Shown here piece by piece: positions 1 to 19,600 of a DNA stretch of 64,000 nucleotides (positions are counted from its first letter, which is position 1; each line of letters starts with the position of its first letter). The DNA is from a virus, in the IMG/VR virus record IMGVR_UViG_3300020477_001611, positions 1-64,000 of that record; one strand, 5' to 3'. The position numbers and the translations under genes are program-made. The notes beneath the pieces are model-generated. The model did not search any database and was not told where the DNA came from. It saw only the letters and a program-made list of their open reading frames with translations.

Positions 1-1323
1 AGCGTGGATTCCAGAACTAGTTCCCAGAGTTAAGCTTGTTGTGCCGGCTGGTTTAACAGTAGTACACCGAGCCGCTGGCTTAATATCTAAAATCTTAGCA
101 ACTCTTTCATTTTCTTCTTTAACAACTTTAGCAGCTTGCGTCATATCAAGATTTAATACTTTACCAGACGCAATTCCCGTCATAGAAACACCGATGAGCG
201 AATCTTTTTCAGTTGTTCTGCGCCACACATCTCTAAGATAATGAAAATCAGTATATCCGGCTTGAAGAGTTCCAATGAACGCTGCAGCCTTTGCTCGTTT
301 TTCTAGTTCTTCCTGAGATTCCACGTTGCTTACGTTAATTTCTGTGAGATTACAGAACTGATAAGGGCGTAATGCGATCTCGCAACACGGATTCGTGCCC
401 CAATCTTTATCGTTTGTAAAATAAAACCCGGGTTCTCCAGCACCTGAAGCCTTTACGCGCTCCCAGAGAGACTCAAACACCTCTTTCGTGATTCTATGTC
501 GTAATAATACGACAGAATTGTTTGCACGTCCGCGTTGTGGGTTTTTCTCCCACCAATTGCCAGTTTTGGCAGCCAACATCTCACCATCATCTGCAGAGAA
601 AAGGCTGATGAGAGCAGCACGGCGAATGCCGCCAGCGAGAACAGCATCGGCAATATGACAAACAATGTCATGTACCTCGATAGCTTGCAGCTTATCTCCA
701 TCATTTTTTTCATCTAAAATACCTCTAACCTTGAGCAGGCACTCTTTTAGTGGCTGTGGGCCCGGTGCTTTTCCACCCGAAGTAATTAGTCTCGCGCCCT
801 TTGGGCGGATGTCACTAAAGTCAAATCTTATGGTGGAGCCACCAAAAAAATAGCTTCTCACTAATGCTTTTACAGCATCTGCCCACCCTTCAATGCTATC
901 GCCGATCAAAAACCTACGAGATCGCTTAGGATTTGGCCTTCGGATTTCCGGTAACTTCTCAACATGGTGTTGCTGAACACTGTACCCAACACCAGTTCCA
1001 CCAAGCAATAGAAACATAATTTCACTAAAAACACGCCAATCATCAATAGGTGCAAACGCACAATTATAAATACGATTTGGGGCCACTTCAATTGGCTTGC
1101 CCCCGAACTGCATAGAGCGCATAGAGGGCAAAACCTTTTTATTGTGAACTAGCTTATAGGCCTCTGTGATTTCTTCTTTTAATTCTGGATAAGCTTTCCA
1201 ATGCATCCGCTTATTGCGATTGACCAGTTCTCTCCACGCCTCCCTGCGCTTTTTCTTAGGTAGATAGCGTGCGTACTTCATATATACGGTAATATCAGAT
1301 AAAATTTTAGTTTCTCGTTCCAT
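1..1323 (-). CDS. nrdJ: Class II (B12-dependent) ribonucleoside-triphosphate reductase, 3' part missing
   Basis: This enzyme reduces ribonucleotides to deoxyribonucleotides for phage DNA synthesis, using adenosylcobalamin to make the thiyl radical. The reading frame is open from the ATG to the window edge (441 codons), so the C-terminal part lies outside. Visible motifs match the monomeric Lactobacillus-type enzyme: YNCAF with Cys88, NPCCEIALRP at 311-320 and FCNL with Cys324. The 11-residue spacing of Cys313 and Cys324 equals that of the radical cysteine and its redox partner (C408/C419) in that family. PAGTTS lies at 425-430. The start is preceded by a G-rich site (AGGGGGGC) and overlaps the helicase gene by 17 bases, so the two are probably translated together. 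It differs from the class I NrdA/NrdB of T4. Confidence 0.93.
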   Translation of the reverse strand, partial: MERETKILSDITVYMKYARYLPKKKRREAWRELVNRNKRMHWKAYPELKEEITEAYKLVHNKKVLPSMRSMQFGGKPIEVAPNRIYNCAFAPIDDWRVFSEIMFLLLGGTGVGYSVQQHHVEKLPEIRRPNPKRSRRFLIGDSIEGWADAVKALVRSYFFGGSTIRFDFSDIRPKGARLITSGGKAPGPQPLKECLLKVRGILDEKNDGDKLQAIEVHDIVCHIADAVLAGGIRRAALISLFSADDGEMLAAKTGNWWEKNPQRGRANNSVVLLRHRITKEVFESLWERVKASGAGEPGFYFTNDKDWGTNPCCEIALRPYQFCNLTEINVSNVESQEELEKRAKAAAFIGTLQAGYTDFHYLRDVWRRTTEKDSLIGVSMTGIASGKVLNLDMTQAAKVVKEENERVAKILDIKPAARCTTVKPAGTTSLTLGTSSGIHA

Positions 1324-2683
1324 TTTTGCCCCCCTGCATTAATTCTTTATATTTTTCTTTTAGTAACTGTTCTTGTGTTTTTGCCGGCGTTTGAGTAGTG
1401 ACATTAACATCTTGCGACACAATATTGATTTTTACATTTGAAGTGTCCATATAAACGGGATACGCAAAGCCATCTGGGCCGAATCGATTTTTTGCCACAA
1501 AAAACCTCCCTCCATTGCTACTCTTATCTGTCAATGTTCGTGATAAAGTAAATATCAAGTCGGCGACAAAACACTTCGAAAAAGCTTCAGAAATACTTTC
1601 AATAGTGACCAATTCTGCATTATATCCAGACCGATTAGTCTGTGAAACAGTCCACAGCGGACATTCAAATATCTGTGCTATGCCGCGCAAATCTTCATAG
1701 ATTGTTTCCAAATCGTGGCGCTTCTCTCCATAACTTTTAATTGGTCGCACCAAATCTGCGTAATCTATTAAAATTAAATCTGGTTTAATTTCCGCGTTCT
1801 TTAACTTTTCTAAATGATTTTGAATTGTTTTAGTCGTAATCGAACGGGTTGCGTATTCCTTAACAAGCAAGCGACCGGAGACCCCCACAATTTTTTCTAA
1901 AATATGCTCTTTAAAGACTGTAACGTCGCCCAAAGGCACTCCAGTTAAGCAACTATCATACCGCCTAGCAACAGCAGTGTCGCTCAATTCAAGCGTGTAA
2001 TGTATAACGGTTTTGCCTTGTTTGAGGGCTGCTGCACCCAAATGCACCAAAATATGACTCTTCCCCGACCCGGTCCCTCCAATGGCGACACCCAACTCGC
2101 CAGAACCCAAGCCACCTTGCATAATTTCGTCCATCTTTGTCCAGCCGGTGCTAACAGGATCTCTTGCCTTAAGCTCAAAGCGCTTCTCAAAGTCTTTCAC
2201 ATAATCATACCCAAAATCGTTACTCTGTCCCAACTTTAAAGCTTCATTAATCAAATGAGAAATTTCATCAAAAGATGATTTTTCCAACAATGCAGCCGAT
2301 TTAATAATTGCGTCCTTCAGGCGCTGTTTTTTGCAAAAATCCAACGCACGATCTTTAATATACTGCTCTCCAGACACCTCTTGGTCTGTGTGTACCCTAA
2401 CTAAAAACTTTCTTACCTCTTCTTTTGCCAACTTATCTTCATCGCTTATCTCATTATTAACCAAAGACGCCATAAGTGAAAGCGTAGGGTGGACCGAATA
2501 CTTTTCCTTGTAGTCATAAATAAGCTTAACAAAGGCTTGAAGTGCCTTTGTTTCAAAATAATTTATATCTAAAACCTCGCCGACCTGATCGGCATAAGTT
2601 CTATCAAAAAGAATAAGCTTTGCTAAATTCTCCTGAAAAGAGTTTCCAAATTTTGAAAAATCCACCTTTTCGCTAGGCCTCAT
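1307..2683 (-). CDS. dnaB: Replicative DNA helicase, DnaB/T4 gp41 type
   Basis: A hexameric 5'-3' helicase that unwinds DNA at the phage fork and works with the primase encoded at 40.2-41.1 kb. The N-terminal helical domain occupies about residues 1-150. The RecA-type ATPase domain follows, with Walker A GGTGSGKS at 202-209, YTLELS with the catalytic Glu near 232, Walker B LILIDYADL at about 302-310 and the sensor segment TVSQTNRSG near 344-352. At 458 residues it is close to DnaB and T4 gp41 in size. It overlaps the upstream 5'-nuclease gene by 11 bases and the downstream reductase gene by 17 bases, indicating one co-transcribed unit. No intein or frameshift is seen. Confidence 0.93.
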   Translation of the reverse strand: MRPSEKVDFSKFGNSFQENLAKLILFDRTYADQVGEVLDINYFETKALQAFVKLIYDYKEKYSVHPTLSLMASLVNNEISDEDKLAKEEVRKFLVRVHTDQEVSGEQYIKDRALDFCKKQRLKDAIIKSAALLEKSSFDEISHLINEALKLGQSNDFGYDYVKDFEKRFELKARDPVSTGWTKMDEIMQGGLGSGELGVAIGGTGSGKSHILVHLGAAALKQGKTVIHYTLELSDTAVARRYDSCLTGVPLGDVTVFKEHILEKIVGVSGRLLVKEYATRSITTKTIQNHLEKLKNAEIKPDLILIDYADLVRPIKSYGEKRHDLETIYEDLRGIAQIFECPLWTVSQTNRSGYNAELVTIESISEAFSKCFVADLIFTLSRTLTDKSSNGGRFFVAKNRFGPDGFAYPVYMDTSNVKINIVSQDVNVTTQTPAKTQEQLLKEKYKELMQGGKNGTRN

Positions 2684-3641
2684 TATTCACCCTCTTGATT
2701 TTCCTCATGTGTGCAAACATATCTTCAAAAGATATTTCCGCGAAGCCATCTTGAATCATCATCTTCAACATCTCTGTTTTATTAAGTTCCTCGGGATAGT
2801 TTTTAACTGCCTCTTTCAAGATCGCAGCATTTTTTGGTGACAAACTATTACAATAAAGTTGCATTATTTGATAATTCTCAGCTAGTATTTTTTCCTTCTC
2901 CACCACTGCATTATACACCTTTATGTTGATGTTCTCAAGCATTTTCTCACTGTGGATCACTAAATCTTCTATCGAATACGACCTTTCTTCCTTTAAAAAC
3001 GGGAACCTTTTAGCTGCAGACTTTAAGCCGACGCCGCCAATTCCTTCGATATTGTCTGATTTATCTCCCGCCATGGCACGAGCAAGGGTGAAGTTGATAG
3101 GGTGTATATCAAATTTCTCCACAATATGATTCTTGTTTAAAATTTCTTTTTGAACCGGCCGATACAATAAGGTGGTGTCGTCCAACAATTGAAAGAAGTC
3201 TTTGTCTGACGAGACAATAACCTTTTGGGTGTCTCGATAGAGGCCACACAAAGCCGCAATTAAGTCGTCAGCTTCCGTATGATCCATCATCAATTGAGAT
3301 ATGGGAAGCTGATTAAAATATTCCATTAATCTTGATTGTTGCCATATCTTATTTTGAATTTCCTCCTGCTCGCTTAAAACGGTAACATCGCGGTTTAACC
3401 GAAGCGGCTTTTTGCGACCAGCCTTATAGCCGCTTTTTTGCGCCCTTCTCTTAGAAGAGCCTTCTCTGCCGTCCCAACAAATGAAAACCTTGGTAGGCTT
3501 TACCTCTCTGCATAATTTTTGTAAAATCTTTAAGCTCCCCTTAATGCCACCAATTGGTTGCCCATTGGTAGAAAGAGAGGGGTCCACTATGTATGCTCGA
3601 TAATACATATTGAGCATATCTACGATCATAATTCTGTCCAT
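2673..3641 (-). CDS. 5'-3' exonuclease / flap nuclease (FEN, T4 RNase H-like)
   Basis: This metal-dependent nuclease probably removes RNA primers and 5' flaps during lagging-strand synthesis, supplying the activity missing from the separate polymerase. The fold is shown by Asp8, FICWDG around Asp57, EADD at 123-126, SSDKD at 144-148, GDKSDN at 192-197 and the helix-hairpin segment GIGGVG just after it. These are the usual metal ligands of the PolA 5'-nuclease/FEN family. Its 322 residues match T4 RNase H in size. The ATG directly follows the T7 tract of a terminator hairpin, and the only ribosome binding site, AGAGG, lies in the hairpin's 3' arm. The gene has its own sigma-70-type promoter. 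Confidence 0.92.
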   Translation of the reverse strand: MDRIMIVDMLNMYYRAYIVDPSLSTNGQPIGGIKGSLKILQKLCREVKPTKVFICWDGREGSSKRRAQKSGYKAGRKKPLRLNRDVTVLSEQEEIQNKIWQQSRLMEYFNQLPISQLMMDHTEADDLIAALCGLYRDTQKVIVSSDKDFFQLLDDTTLLYRPVQKEILNKNHIVEKFDIHPINFTLARAMAGDKSDNIEGIGGVGLKSAAKRFPFLKEERSYSIEDLVIHSEKMLENINIKVYNAVVEKEKILAENYQIMQLYCNSLSPKNAAILKEAVKNYPEELNKTEMLKMMIQDGFAEISFEDMFAHMRKIKRVNNEA

Positions 3642-3678
3642 AAAAAAACCTCTGATAGAATCTTTATTCTATCAGAGG
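3642..3678 (-). terminator. Intrinsic terminator that also holds the 5'-nuclease ribosome binding site
   Basis: Read on the minus strand this is a perfect 13-base-pair stem (arm CCTCTGATAGAAT, loop AAAG, arm ATTCTATCAGAGG) followed by seven T and then directly by the ATG of the 5'-nuclease. It should end transcripts coming from uvsX and the 43-residue gene. The AGAGG at the end of the 3' arm is the only Shine-Dalgarno-like sequence before that ATG, so the folded stem would also hide it. Confidence 0.85.
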
Positions 3679-3694
3679 TTGAGAGAAGAGTCAA
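3666..3694 (-). promoter_or_regulatory. Sigma-70-type promoter of the 5'-nuclease/helicase/reductase unit
   Basis: On the minus strand TTGACT (3694-3689) and TAGAAT (3671-3666) are separated by exactly 17 bases, each hexamer matching the consensus at five of six positions. The -10 lies within the 5' arm of the terminator stem. The predicted transcript start, near 3659-3660, falls at the end of the loop or start of the 3' arm. Such an RNA could not form the hairpin and would leave the ribosome binding site free. Confidence 0.7.
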
Positions 3695-3700
3695 GCAGTG

Positions 3701-3832
3701 CTATCTACCTTGTCCTCTATAGGGTTTTTTATAGGTTCGTGATTTTTTATTATGATTTCTTTTAGTAAATTTACCATTTCCCTGCCTCGTCTTCTTTCTG
3801 CTGCCCTTTTTCTTATTTCCCTTCGCTGCCAT
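3701..3832 (-). CDS. 43-residue very basic protein of unknown function
   Basis: A short frame whose ATG overlaps the uvsX stop codon (TAATG), so it is probably translated by coupling to uvsX. Its 43 residues are dominated by Lys, Arg, Gly and Asn, starting MAAKGNKKKGSRKKTRQG and ending KKPYRGQGR, with one Phe, two Tyr and no acidic residue. Such a composition suggests nucleic-acid or ribosome binding, but no family is recognised. It lies between the recombinase and the terminator that ends this transcript. I infer a real gene from the coupled start, the clean stop and the filling of an otherwise empty gap; codon statistics could not be computed. Confidence 0.7.
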   Translation of the reverse strand: MAAKGNKKKGSRKKTRQGNGKFTKRNHNKKSRTYKKPYRGQGR

Positions 3833-4944
3833 TAGTTTTTCTCCTCAATATCTCCATAAAAGTCTTCAGCATTTCCAATACGCTTATCAAATTTCATTAC
3901 CACCTCTTTCTCTAAAAGGTCAATGACGCGATTATAAAACTTTTCTTCTTCTAGCTTTTTAACCCAAGTTTTAGATTGAAACTTCTCCGTTGTACCATCT
4001 TCATAATGTAATGTAAACCACGCGCCTGCATTTTTTAAGTGTTCTGAAGACTTGATGGCCTCAAGCCAACTTTCCTTATCCATAATTTTAACCTCTTGGC
4101 CGCCCCAAACAATCTTAAAACTGCACTCTCGGCCCTGAGTTCCAAAGCGGCTCTTTTCAATTTTTGCTTTCACCTCAGTTCCAATTCGAAACCCTTTATC
4201 ATCATAGATAAAACTAGCCTTCCCTTTCCGCGCTGTGAGCCACACACGCAGAGAATATGAGTAGGCTAGGGCCTTACCCCCCGGCGTGAAATACGGCGTC
4301 ACCATGGCCTCTGCTGGGCGTCTGGTGATGTTTGTCTTCAACTGGTTGAGAATCAACAATGTTGATTTAGTGTTGGCAATCGGCTGAATTAGCTTGGACA
4401 AGCCCTTAGAAAGGATACGAGGCTTTACCGCCATCGTGGATAAGGGATTGAAATCTGATTCAATGTCGCTAATAGACGGTGTTAGGGCCATAGAGTCCCA
4501 AATAAAAAGCATTTGACTGTCATTATTGGTCACCAAACTCTCTATTGTTTCTAACACAAATTCTACAGAACTAGCCTGAACATATAATAGGCTCTCTATA
4601 TCACAGCCAGCATTGGCCAAAAATTCCGGATCAATAGCCGATTCGGAATCAAAATAAATAACATCAATTCCCAACTTTTGAGCGTTGCCGGCAATTTGTG
4701 CCGCCATATAAGACTTACCAGTAGCCTCTAGGCCGGCGATTTCACTCACCTTTCCTACCGGAATGCCACCCCACTTTCCACGACAGATGATTCCATCAAG
4801 CCATTTGCAGCCGGTTGGAATGTACTGCTCCACTTGAGTGGGGTTATCATCCTTTAAAGAAAAAGCTACATTATAGCCTGCTTTCTTATTAATTAATTTT
4901 TTCATGTCGTCAATTTTTAATCGACCGACTTTAGTTTTTGCCAT
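3832..4944 (-). CDS. uvsX: UvsX/RecA-type recombinase
   Basis: This strand-exchange ATPase coats single-stranded DNA and drives recombination-dependent replication and repair. The ATPase core shows Walker A GLEATGKS at 71-78, DSES near 99-102, Walker B MLFIWDS at 145-151 and the LNQLKTN segment near 199-205, followed by the TPGGKALAY region typical of DNA-binding loop 2. At 370 residues it is close to T4 UvsX. It follows the gp32-like gene, as expected for partners in the same reaction, with a hairpin between them. The start is supported by TGGAGAAAAA just upstream. The acidic C-terminal tail (GDIEEKN) is short. Confidence 0.92.
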   Translation of the reverse strand: MAKTKVGRLKIDDMKKLINKKAGYNVAFSLKDDNPTQVEQYIPTGCKWLDGIICRGKWGGIPVGKVSEIAGLEATGKSYMAAQIAGNAQKLGIDVIYFDSESAIDPEFLANAGCDIESLLYVQASSVEFVLETIESLVTNNDSQMLFIWDSMALTPSISDIESDFNPLSTMAVKPRILSKGLSKLIQPIANTKSTLLILNQLKTNITRRPAEAMVTPYFTPGGKALAYSYSLRVWLTARKGKASFIYDDKGFRIGTEVKAKIEKSRFGTQGRECSFKIVWGGQEVKIMDKESWLEAIKSSEHLKNAGAWFTLHYEDGTTEKFQSKTWVKKLEEEKFYNRVIDLLEKEVVMKFDKRIGNAEDFYGDIEEKN

Positions 4945-4960: not shown

Positions 4961-4984
4961 AAGGGGGGGCCGAAGCCCCCCCTT
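4961..4984 (-). terminator. GC-rich hairpin between gp32-like gene and uvsX
   Basis: An almost uninterrupted stem (AAGGGGGGGC with GCCCCCCCTT) closes a four-base loop that reads TTCG on the minus strand. On that strand only TTTAACAC follows, a weak T tract, so it may act as a partial terminator that lowers uvsX expression relative to gp32, or as an mRNA-stabilising hairpin. On the plus strand it is followed by TTCTTTTT. Confidence 0.6.
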
Positions 4985-16080: not shown

Positions 16081-16650
16081 TTAGGCTAAAGTATTATTTT
16101 GCGCTGGTTCGAAAACTTCTAAGTCCGCGAAGTCATATTGGAAAGTAACCGTAACAGTTGTCAACGCTTCACTTCCATAGTTTAAATCGCCATAGTTCAC
16201 ACCGGAAATCCATGCATTACGAAGGGTCCACTTCTCCACCATGTTGCCGGCAGAATCTAAAGCTTTGACCGCAATATCACCTAAATTACCATTGGTAAAA
16301 TTATTTTTAGAAAACGTCTGAAGCCACCCTTCGTTGTCGGCGCTCCACTCGGAAGGCAACACATAGCCGGCCTTTTTAACAGCATCGAAAAGGACACCAG
16401 AAACATCAGGATCAATTGGTTCTACAAGCTTAATTTGAAATTGATTCCATGTCAACCTTCCCGGGTATTTAAACGTATGTCCTAAAAACTGATGTGTTGC
16501 ACCAGCAGACACTGTAAAGTCCGGGCGCTGAGCCGTTAAAACCACCCACGCTGGAATATCGCCAATTGTCAAAATAAATTTAAATTCGCGTTTTGGCTCA
16601 ATCTTAGCTGATGCCCATGGTGGTAAAGGTGTAGTTTTATTAGCTGCCAT
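16081..16650 (-). CDS. 19: Tail tube protein, copy 1 (T4 gp19-like)
   Basis: This second tube-type protein of 189 residues lies directly after the sheath gene, the place of gene 19 in T4. It shows REFKFILTIGDIPAWVVL, TAQRPDF, HTFKYPGRLTWNQFQIKLVE, GDIAVKALDSAGNMVEKWTL, RNAWISGVNYGDLNYGSEAL and VTVTFQYDFADLEVF. These parts line up with the neighbouring copy over the whole core, at low but clear similarity. Because this copy is closer in order and size to gp19, it may form the main tube, and the other the tube end or a specialised segment. The start has GGAGAATAACA before it. Confidence 0.85.
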   Translation of the reverse strand: MAANKTTPLPPWASAKIEPKREFKFILTIGDIPAWVVLTAQRPDFTVSAGATHQFLGHTFKYPGRLTWNQFQIKLVEPIDPDVSGVLFDAVKKAGYVLPSEWSADNEGWLQTFSKNNFTNGNLGDIAVKALDSAGNMVEKWTLRNAWISGVNYGDLNYGSEALTTVTVTFQYDFADLEVFEPAQNNTLA

Positions 16651-16675
16651 TGTTATTCTCCTACTTTAAATAGTT

Positions 16676-19600
16676 TTAATCCTCAAAAGCTGCTCCAGTA
16701 TTAGTGATAACAAAGTCAATTGCAACAAATTCGATTGCCCTCGTGGGCTTCAAAAACACCTTTGCGTATAAGACATTTCTATCAATGAGGTCCGGGGTTG
16801 TGGTTGTTTCATCCAAAATCAACTTGTAATCATCCAGACCAAATCGCGCTTTCACGTCTGCCAAGAAGGGTTCTGCCTGACCGATGAACCTAGCCCACGT
16901 CTGGCGCACATTCGGCTCAAACAAGAGACCACTAGCTATTTGAGAAATTCCCTTTTTGACAAAGAGCATTAAGCGGCGAACATTAATACGATCCAGCGCA
17001 CTTCTTGTAACCTGTAGCGTCTTTTGACCAAAGATAACGATACCTTCGTTGGGGAAGGTTGCAATTGGATTAATGTTGGCCTTATAAAGGTCGTCACGGT
17101 CCTGTGCAGTAAGCTTCTTTGTAACACTGACCACGGGCAAGCCTGCAACGCCGGTTGATAAGCCTCCACGATTAAAGCCGGCCGGGGCGAACCATGGGGC
17201 GCGGACTCTATCTGTGTAAGCCATGGCCCCCAGAGCCACAACGGACGAAGGCATGTAAACCAATTTACTGCTAGCCGGGTCTCTTACCTGTACAAATGGG
17301 AAGTAAGCGCACCCATAGCTAGAATTAATTCCACGATTTTTAAGGTTTGTGATCGTGTTACTAATATCCGGGTAAGTAATGCCGTCATTGCCCTCATCGG
17401 CTGGAACGAAATCGCCCTTCAAATCAATAATGGCCAAGGCGTCTGCACGAGACTCGGCGGTCTGAATGAGATGGTATGTCAAGCTTTCGTTTGTGATGCC
17501 CGGGCAAGTTATCAAATTGTATTCAAAGAACTCAGAATCACGCGTAAGGTCAATTGATTCCTTGATTGTATTATAGGCATAATTTGTGCTTGGGGCACCG
17601 TCTAATAACTTGGTATTTCTAAATGGGTTTTGTTCCGTAATGTCTAAGCCATCGGCACCTGCAGCAAGGGGAATCGTAAACTTATTAATTGTTTTATCCA
17701 AAATCGACTTGTAATCATTGCCACTTTGGACAGAGACTGAGTCTCCTGCAACATAAGATCCAGAGGTCCAAACGAATTCATTCTTATTCGTATCTGGTTG
17801 GACGATTTCATCCATAGTGAAGACAAATTGATAATCCGTTTTGTCAGCAGAGCTTGGAGTATATAAACTACTCAAGTTTGAACTTAAAGGCCTGTTGAGA
17901 TCGATATAGTCACCATTAAAGCGCGGGTTTGTCTTTGATTTTCCAGACCAAGCACCCCAATAAGCGTTTGTATAATCCGGAACGTCGTCCTGCGACGAAC
18001 TCATACGAAGCTCATGTGCTGGGAAAAGCAGTTTAAGCCGCATTTCAGAATAATTCACGCCGTCGCTGCCCGTGGCTGTTTCTCCAAAACCAGAGCCGGT
18101 AAAAACGCTCAACATGCCCGGGCTCGTATTGCCTGCGCTTTGTTCCGCTGGCTGCCACACGCCATTGGTGGCACCGCCGCTTAAATAAAGCTTGGCGCGT
18201 AAAGCGTGGTCAAAGGCACCCGAAAGATTTGAGAGATAATTAATGTTGATGTCATAGGGCTTAATAGGACCAAAGTAGCCAAAGGGAAGGTATTCTTCAT
18301 TGGTTTGAGCACCGTCGACCGCTGCATTCATTTCGATGCGAATAAGTTTGGAACGGTTTGGCCAAGTCCCTTCAGTTGTTAAGCGTCGTGTGGTAGAATT
18401 AAAATACACATATTGATCGCCAATTTTAGCTGCAACATAATTTTCTGAATTGGGGTTAAGGTTGCAATTACTAAAGCGCTCTAAGATTATGGGCGCGGTA
18501 TCAGTATCGGTAGCATCTCGGACGAGTACATCAAAGGTCCCGTACTTATTAAATTGATCACTAGAATAGTCAACGTTGGTGATTGAAACCTTTAAATTCT
18601 TATTGGCCCAGTCGCCATAATCAAGCGCTACAAACTTAAATAATTTCTGTTGAGTAGTGTACTTATAATTAGCTTTATCAGCCACTGCGTCAAGAGTTTG
18701 CGCAAAAACCCAGCCGCTACGCGCATTGTTTCGGCTTTCTTTACCAGAGACCGTTCCGTCTTCGAAAGGAGTTTGTCGGGTGCCAAAGTTGTCTGCGGCG
18801 CTGGCCGAAGCCAGTGGTAAGATTAACCCAATGTAAGGGGCTGAAGCATCCCAATGCGACGCTGATGGCGTTGTGGAATCTCCCTGTGTGGCTCTCACGG
18901 CGCCCGGGCCTTCGTTCACGTCGGCGTCGGCGTTGCCCCGGGCCTTCTTCATCAAGAAGTTGTTAGCATAAGTCTCACCAAGCCAATAGCGCTCTCTTGA
19001 GCCCGAAGCTACGATATCTTTGTTAACCAAGGTTGGATTGGTATTAAAAACTTTGCGAGCATAATTTGAATCTGTGTCCGTCAGTGAAAACTTAATAACG
19101 CGGTTGGGGTAATCAGTATTGCTTCCCGTAATAGACACGGTAAAAGCACCATTGCTATCAGAAAAGATTAAGCGATTGGAGCCACTGGCAAAAGCATCAG
19201 TAGTACTAGCTGTCGCAGCGCTAGAGTTTGCATTACCGACAAGGCCCATGTATCCATCTTCCACGTACCAAACTGCCGTCAAAGATCCCGTAACAGAAAA
19301 ACTAGCGGTGAAGGCCGAAGAAGCACTAATTTCATTTGGCAAAACCCAAAGACCATAAGCGCTTCCGCTCCTTCCAAGCTGGGCAGCGTCGGCCGTTAAA
19401 GTGGGCGTGGCGTGTGCAGTGAGACGATTGCTGAGCACCCAGCCAGCCTCGCCGGCCGAGGTCGCATCTTTATTCTTGGAACCAAGGAGGCGCACATAGG
19501 TCAAGGGAGAAGAATTTCTCAACCAAGCTTGTGCGGCAAAGGGCCCATAAGTGGGAGACATGGTGTTCTCATTGCGCCACACATCATCGCCCTTTCCGCC

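Follow-up and report, generated by a model that had tools for sequence, protein, structure and literature searches.

In IS10 fold-back inhibition, RNA read into the transposon from flanking DNA folds into a hairpin that masks the ribosome site of the transposase, whereas transcripts of the internal promoter lack this hairpin; unlike the phage element described here, the arrangement defends a transposon against outside transcription and lies within terminal inverted repeats. In bacteriophage T4, it is established that the read-through RNAs of e (lysozyme), soc, 49 and I-TevI form hairpins that hide the ribosome site, and that a promoter lying within or beside the 5′ hairpin strand yields a translated RNA without that strand (PMC3014915, PMC2988022). 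For sigG of Bacillus subtilis, the relevant part of the source proposes a long hairpin that blocks translation of spoIIG read-through RNA and is unable to form in RNA started at PsigG (PMC5942855).

The element analysed here, located between a UvsX/RecA-like recombinase gene and a 5′-nuclease gene of a phage, differs from these systems in several respects. The T4 leaders carry late promoters (TATAAATA) that depend on gp55 and serve late genes, whereas the element has a sigma70-type promoter with a −35 box and an extended −10 box (TTGACT-17-TAGAAT, not the T4 late motif) and serves replication genes. The parts of the T4 papers considered here describe no terminator role for the leaders, whereas the hairpin of the element is accompanied by a T tract. 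Similarly, sigG belongs to bacterial sporulation and has a sigmaF/sigmaG promoter, and the portion of its source drawn on here describes no terminator role for its hairpin. With intrinsic (Rho-independent) terminators, the element shares a GC-rich stem base, a short loop and a U tract directly after the stem, but it additionally holds the −10 box and part of the spacer of the promoter of the next gene in the same orientation. A model of the element gave no match in 100 kb of T4 including e, soc and 49, and Rfam contained no curated family matching at the element. A literature search, with subscription journals mostly outside its coverage, found no promoters embedded in terminators described for such phages. 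A sigma70-type promoter inside a terminator with a U tract, retained by a phage family at a single junction while the hairpins change, appears to be undescribed.

Structure, conservation and predicted transcripts of the element

The window, i.e., the whole stretch of DNA analysed, comprises the first 64 kb of a viral record of 101,154 bases. The main genes of the record lie on the minus strand and are tightly packed, and the record is that of a tailed phage, judging by its tail-tube, baseplate, portal, terminase and capsid families. The gene order at the element is DNA polymerase A, an unknown gene, a gp32-like SSB, UvsX/RecA, a 43-aa basic ORF, the element, 5′-nuclease, DnaB helicase and ribonucleotide reductase (Table 1). 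A domain search of the record found no sigma70 region 2 or region 4 domains, and the controls were silent in a search of the record for a single-subunit RNA polymerase. A search of a phage collection at the DNA level, using the 6.8 kb that surround the site, gave no match. A nuclease search of genome contigs found no relative and thus provided no host clue. A strong GC-rich hairpin was also observed between SSB and UvsX (window 4961-4984, minus strand; e.g., GGGGGGGC-TTCG-GCCCCCCC); it lacks a promoter and has no more than a short T run. It also occurred, with varying sequence, ahead of UvsX in L003, L006, L014, L018 and L026, so that UvsX has hairpins on both flanks.

Table 1. Coordinates of the element and neighbouring genes in the window.
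Feature	Position	Strand	Evidence or remark
−35 hexamer TTGACT, outside the hairpin	3694-3689	−	TTGAC invariant in 22/22 distinct elements
Spacer between −35 and −10, 17 nt		−	sequence
−10 hexamer TAGAAT, at the inner end of the 5′ arm	3671-3666	−	preceded by TGA
Extended −10, TG	3674-3673	−	sequence
Hairpin 5′ arm, AACCTCTGATAGAAT	3680-3666	−	folding; compensatory pair changes
Loop, AAAG	3665-3662	−	sequence
Hairpin 3′ arm, ATTCTATCAGAGGTT	3661-3647	−	folding; covariation
Shine-Dalgarno-like AGAGG within the 3′ arm	3653-3649	−	sequence
T tract, seven T, two within the stem, adjoining the start codon	3648-3642	−	sequence
Nuclease ATG	3641-3639	−	sequence
UvsX/RecA-like recombinase, last main gene of the upstream unit	3832..4944	−	PF00154, phrog_97
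Small, basic 43-aa ORF separating UvsX from the element	3701..3832	−	position not common to all relatives
5′-3′ exonuclease/flap endonuclease, first gene of the putative restarted unit	2673..3641	−	PF02739, phrog_107
DnaB-like replicative helicase	1307..2683	−	phrog_19, PF03796
Ribonucleotide reductase, truncated by the record end	1..1323	−	by eye approximately the same protein as the full-length one in L059

The preliminary description had read TTGACT-17-TAGAAT with its −10 box in the 5′ arm of a hairpin, AGAGG in the 3′ arm, then seven T and ATG. The sequence bears out each of these points, on the minus strand. The hairpin is perfect, as described, but its stem consists of 15 base pairs rather than 13, the outer AA/TT having been left out. 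Promoter and hairpin together are packed in 56 bp. The predicted folding energy of the window element was −36.6 kcal/mol, compared with −23.2 kcal/mol for shuffled sequences (z −4.4; 0/200 shuffles as good). The pattern TTGA[CT] plus TGnTAnnAT at the spacing of the element occurred once in the 64 kb. Promoter-like sites in general were frequent (48 observed versus 28 expected in 12 kb), and given this frequency the promoter match by itself would not impress. Neither the scan nor the element model found further copies of the element in the 101-kb record.

A protein search with the nuclease identified 57 viral contigs. The composite was present within 60 bases before the nuclease ATG in the window and in 37 of these contigs, giving 22 distinct sequences (class A) when near-identical contigs were merged by exact sequence only, the records being uncultured and many of them fragments. 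Conservation across the window and 37 further contigs places the composite far beyond chance. The −35 box was TTGACT in 21 of the distinct elements and TTGACA in one, and the −10 box was TAGAAT in 21 and TAGACT in one, at a constant spacing of 17 nt despite a drifting spacer sequence. These hexamers, their conservation and a spacing within 16-18 nt are those of a sigma70-type promoter. The last bases of the −10 box need no pairing, and its closing T was invariant even where unpaired; together with the position of TTGACT outside the stem, this indicated that the promoter is conserved in its own right.

In the core stem of class A, 237 of 242 cells were Watson-Crick pairs and five were G-U, with no A-C and no other mismatches; three pairs had changed on both sides. 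At the unconstrained stem position immediately preceding the −10 box, the pair was A-T, G-C, C-G or T-G. Covariation in class A was 0.257, compared with 0.135 in shuffled alignments (0/500 as high) and ≤0.09 when the stem was slid. Although the 3′ arm does not belong to the promoter, the TCTA within it was invariant and its other bases tracked the 5′ arm, indicating that the hairpin, too, is conserved in its own right. A second clade had 57 Watson-Crick and 13 G-U stem cells and no A-C. The wobbles occurred in the sense strand only, and because a DNA palindrome would have no reason for such a one-strand preference, the selected form is the sense RNA. The comparison of the 22 distinct elements therefore indicates that both signals are genuine and were selected separately, namely a sigma70-type promoter and an RNA hairpin. 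Among the class A contigs, UvsX was 82-89% identical to that of the window, and the nuclease after the element, on the same contigs, only about 60-67%; recombination may have a boundary at this junction, or the nuclease may be fast-evolving.

Predicted hairpin energies ranged from −14.6 to −24.8 kcal/mol over 37 elements. As in an intrinsic terminator, folding and covariation point to a stable hairpin in the transcript, and a U tract follows right after the stem. All 22 class A elements had six or seven T among the seven bases before the ATG. The T run listed in the preliminary description proved exceptional, since at least six T before the start were found only at the two element genes among 198 ORF starts in two genomes. 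A terminator requires such a tract, whereas the distance from ribosome site to start codon could be filled without one. In several elements, however, the U tract is interrupted (TTATTTT), making the strength of termination uncertain.

Counting +7 from the −10 box, transcription would start at position 3659 in the window, within a probable range from the loop to about 3658. In all 37 elements the same count fell 0-9 nt beyond the point where the 3′ arm begins. A start at or in the 3′ arm implies that local RNA would lack the 5′ arm, in line with the preliminary description. The ribosome site lay in the 3′ arm in 25/37 elements, with predicted open probabilities of 0.001 in read-through RNA and 0.55 in local RNA. 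For AGAGG in the window the corresponding values were 0.00 and 0.42. The proposed hiding of the site in read-through RNA was thus supported by prediction, whereas its release in local RNA appeared only partial (0.42 in the window, 0.12 in L059). AGGGG, a weak Shine-Dalgarno sequence, was common in the clade of the window. In 11/37 elements the site was downstream of the T tract, with predicted open probabilities of 0.49 in read-through and 0.65 in local RNA and an unchanged promoter-hairpin geometry; the T4-type pattern, i.e., a site paired in read-through RNA and free in local RNA, was therefore predicted for the window but not for these 11 relatives. They suggest that the transcriptional part is general and that a translational part was added in some lineages. 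Since the site lies outside the hairpin in many relatives, hiding is presumably not the general purpose and is predicted to be an added layer in the clade of the window and a few others. The earlier suggestion that the local promoter alone determines the expression of nuclease, helicase and reductase went too far, because hiding would act on the nuclease alone. The helicase has its own start and could be translated from read-through RNA, so that only termination could insulate the whole unit.

UvsX-nuclease junctions across the wider family

A profile search yielded 80 loci and a further search yielded 30. The family loci, 2.1 Mb in total, were scanned for promoters whose −10 box is overlaid by a hairpin with a T tail. 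The thresholds of the scans, and those of a separate calling of junction signals that was freer in geometry, were set for this analysis. The scan found 38 distinct matches, the geometry of which was partly imposed by the demand for a −10 box near the hairpin. All but one stray (37/38) lay just before a nuclease or a deaminase-nuclease cassette, although this junction is over-represented because the scanned records were gathered via the nuclease. The matches were mostly located 15-200 nt past UvsX, usually directly after it. Applied to 270 kb from T4, SPO1, lambda, KVP40 and two distant relatives, the scan gave no match.

Promoters and terminators were also called separately at 90 distinct junctions. 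Both signals were present at 36, a terminator alone at four, a promoter alone at 26 and neither at 24. Where both were present, the −10 box was inside the hairpin in 35/36; L253, one of the four junctions with a terminator alone, also had the two superposed, with a weaker −10 box. More than half of the examined junctions were without such an element.

The hairpin sequences fell into about 12 classes, many of them without mutual resemblance; examples are AACCCCTGCTAGAAT (the type in the window), GCCCTCACTTGGTATAATACTAGGTGAGGG (L241), AACCCTCCTCGGTTATACTGAGGAGGGTT (L181) and ATCCCCCGTACC..GGTACGGGGGAT (L229). On the nuclease tree, the class of the window formed one clade (100/99), and the presence of the element required about 10 gains or losses, at least eight of them on well-supported branches. 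Judging from these distributions, either the element has been gained and lost frequently, or the promoter has persisted while hairpins were rebuilt around it. Under both histories, the overlay would be what is kept. The retention of the layout with unrelated hairpin sequences suggested that the layout itself is the selected trait.

Proposed function and rival explanations

These observations are, quite probably, best explained by a stop-and-restart boundary between the UvsX unit and the nuclease-helicase-reductase unit. A polymerase arriving from the SSB-UvsX side would transcribe both arms of the hairpin, and the hairpin with its U tract would end the incoming RNA. In any RNA that reads through, the folding predictions suggest that the hairpin would occupy the ribosome site of the nuclease. 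The embedded sigma70-type promoter, whose −10 box belongs to the 5′ arm, would drive nuclease, helicase and ribonucleotide reductase. Its transcripts would have their 5′ ends in the loop or in the first part of the 3′ arm and, lacking the 5′ arm, would form no hairpin, escape termination and keep the ribosome site more open. Across the family, stop-and-restart looks like the general function.

A T4-like translational switch, in which the hairpin would mainly hide the ribosome site of the nuclease and termination would be weak or absent, seems fairly unlikely. T4 e and I-TevI are documented cases of the same principle (PMC3014915, PMC2988022), and the 25/37 elements with a site in the 3′ arm and predicted opening only in local RNA agree with it. 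The promoter-hairpin geometry is nevertheless the same in the 11/37 elements with a downstream site, the T tract is retained although exceptional for the genome, and hiding would leave helicase and reductase unsilenced. It is very unlikely that the overlay reflects genome compaction of no regulatory meaning, whereby a needed terminator and a needed promoter were superposed for space and hiding is a by-product. Tight gene packing would favour such an origin, and with the predicted start downstream of the 5′ arm the overlap is mechanically workable; against this, a small ORF or extra genes come and go beside an unchanged element, and most other terminators are not overlaid (5/48 are, in partly selected records).

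That a phage or host repressor binds the palindrome as a DNA operator over the −10 box is highly improbable. A palindrome does cover the core promoter in every case, but its sequence is wholly different between relatives, with no conserved half-site, and a T tract follows it. The variable stem position changes with its partner, the mismatches are G-U in the sense RNA only and never A-C, and scan and model found no second copy in the 101-kb record, all of which fit an operator poorly. A plain terminator after UvsX with an accidental promoter-like match would be in keeping with the abundance of such matches in the DNA of the window; this is extremely improbable given that the clade has kept the −35 box, the spacing and the unpaired −10 bases despite drift in the spacer sequence, and that the signals are superposed in 35/36 of the junctions with both.

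A stop-and-restart boundary might also act as a hand-over device, in which a polymerase halted at the hairpin stays on the DNA, retreats by about 20-30 bp and initiates again at the embedded promoter. In post-termination recycling, polymerase retained on the DNA diffuses and restarts at nearby promoters (PMC6978380). Recycling has been seen in vitro at the single-molecule level, and its use by the element is purely hypothetical; we consider hand-over unlikely. If it occurred, firing of the replication unit would be coupled to UvsX transcription without a continuous RNA. 

Under the stop-and-restart reading itself, the RNA of the promoter would begin beyond the 5′ arm and escape the surrounding terminator, which offers a compact way to separate adjacent transcription units. 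The element could also serve as a natural template for asking whether terminator-released polymerases restart at the nearest promoter, and it is a warning for annotation pipelines that predict promoters and terminators separately.

Related signals elsewhere in these genomes

The overlay was not a rule for all terminators of these phages. The idea that every terminator holds a promoter was rejected, because only 5/48 terminators were overlaid, compared with 1% at control positions, in seven records partly picked for having one. A plain terminator without an embedded promoter was located right after the major capsid gene of the window (23011-22960, minus strand; GGCCCCCGCTC-ttcg-GAGCGGGGGTT plus a T run), and this terminator was the one weak match of the element model in the record. 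A relaxed palindrome pattern found further stems in the viral contigs, with no promoter ahead of them.

Other arrangements were observed in relatives. In L089, L102 and L103, a lineage without the element before the nuclease, TTGACA-17-TATGAT precedes the helicase near 3941, with its −10 box in the loop of a GATCTAG/CTAGATC palindrome that has no T run. In L140, L149, L154 and L198, which form one clade, a plain TTGACA promoter lies just before the nuclease, with only about 5-10 nt separating the end of its −10 box from the ATG, which would suit a leaderless mRNA. The cultured distant relative Microcystis phage Mel-JY01 (L276) shares the gene order RecA, nuclease, helicase and has a terminator-like hairpin, CGGGCG..CGCCCGTTTT (about 4880-4911), at its RecA-nuclease junction, with no embedded promoter at the threshold used. 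L087 encodes an adenylosuccinate-synthetase-like gene (16268-17266, minus strand; record about 99268-100266). Its best PHROG was 2-aminooxy adenylosuccinate synthetase (PurZ-like), with scores below all NCBIfam cut-offs, and the gene might be related to a modified base.
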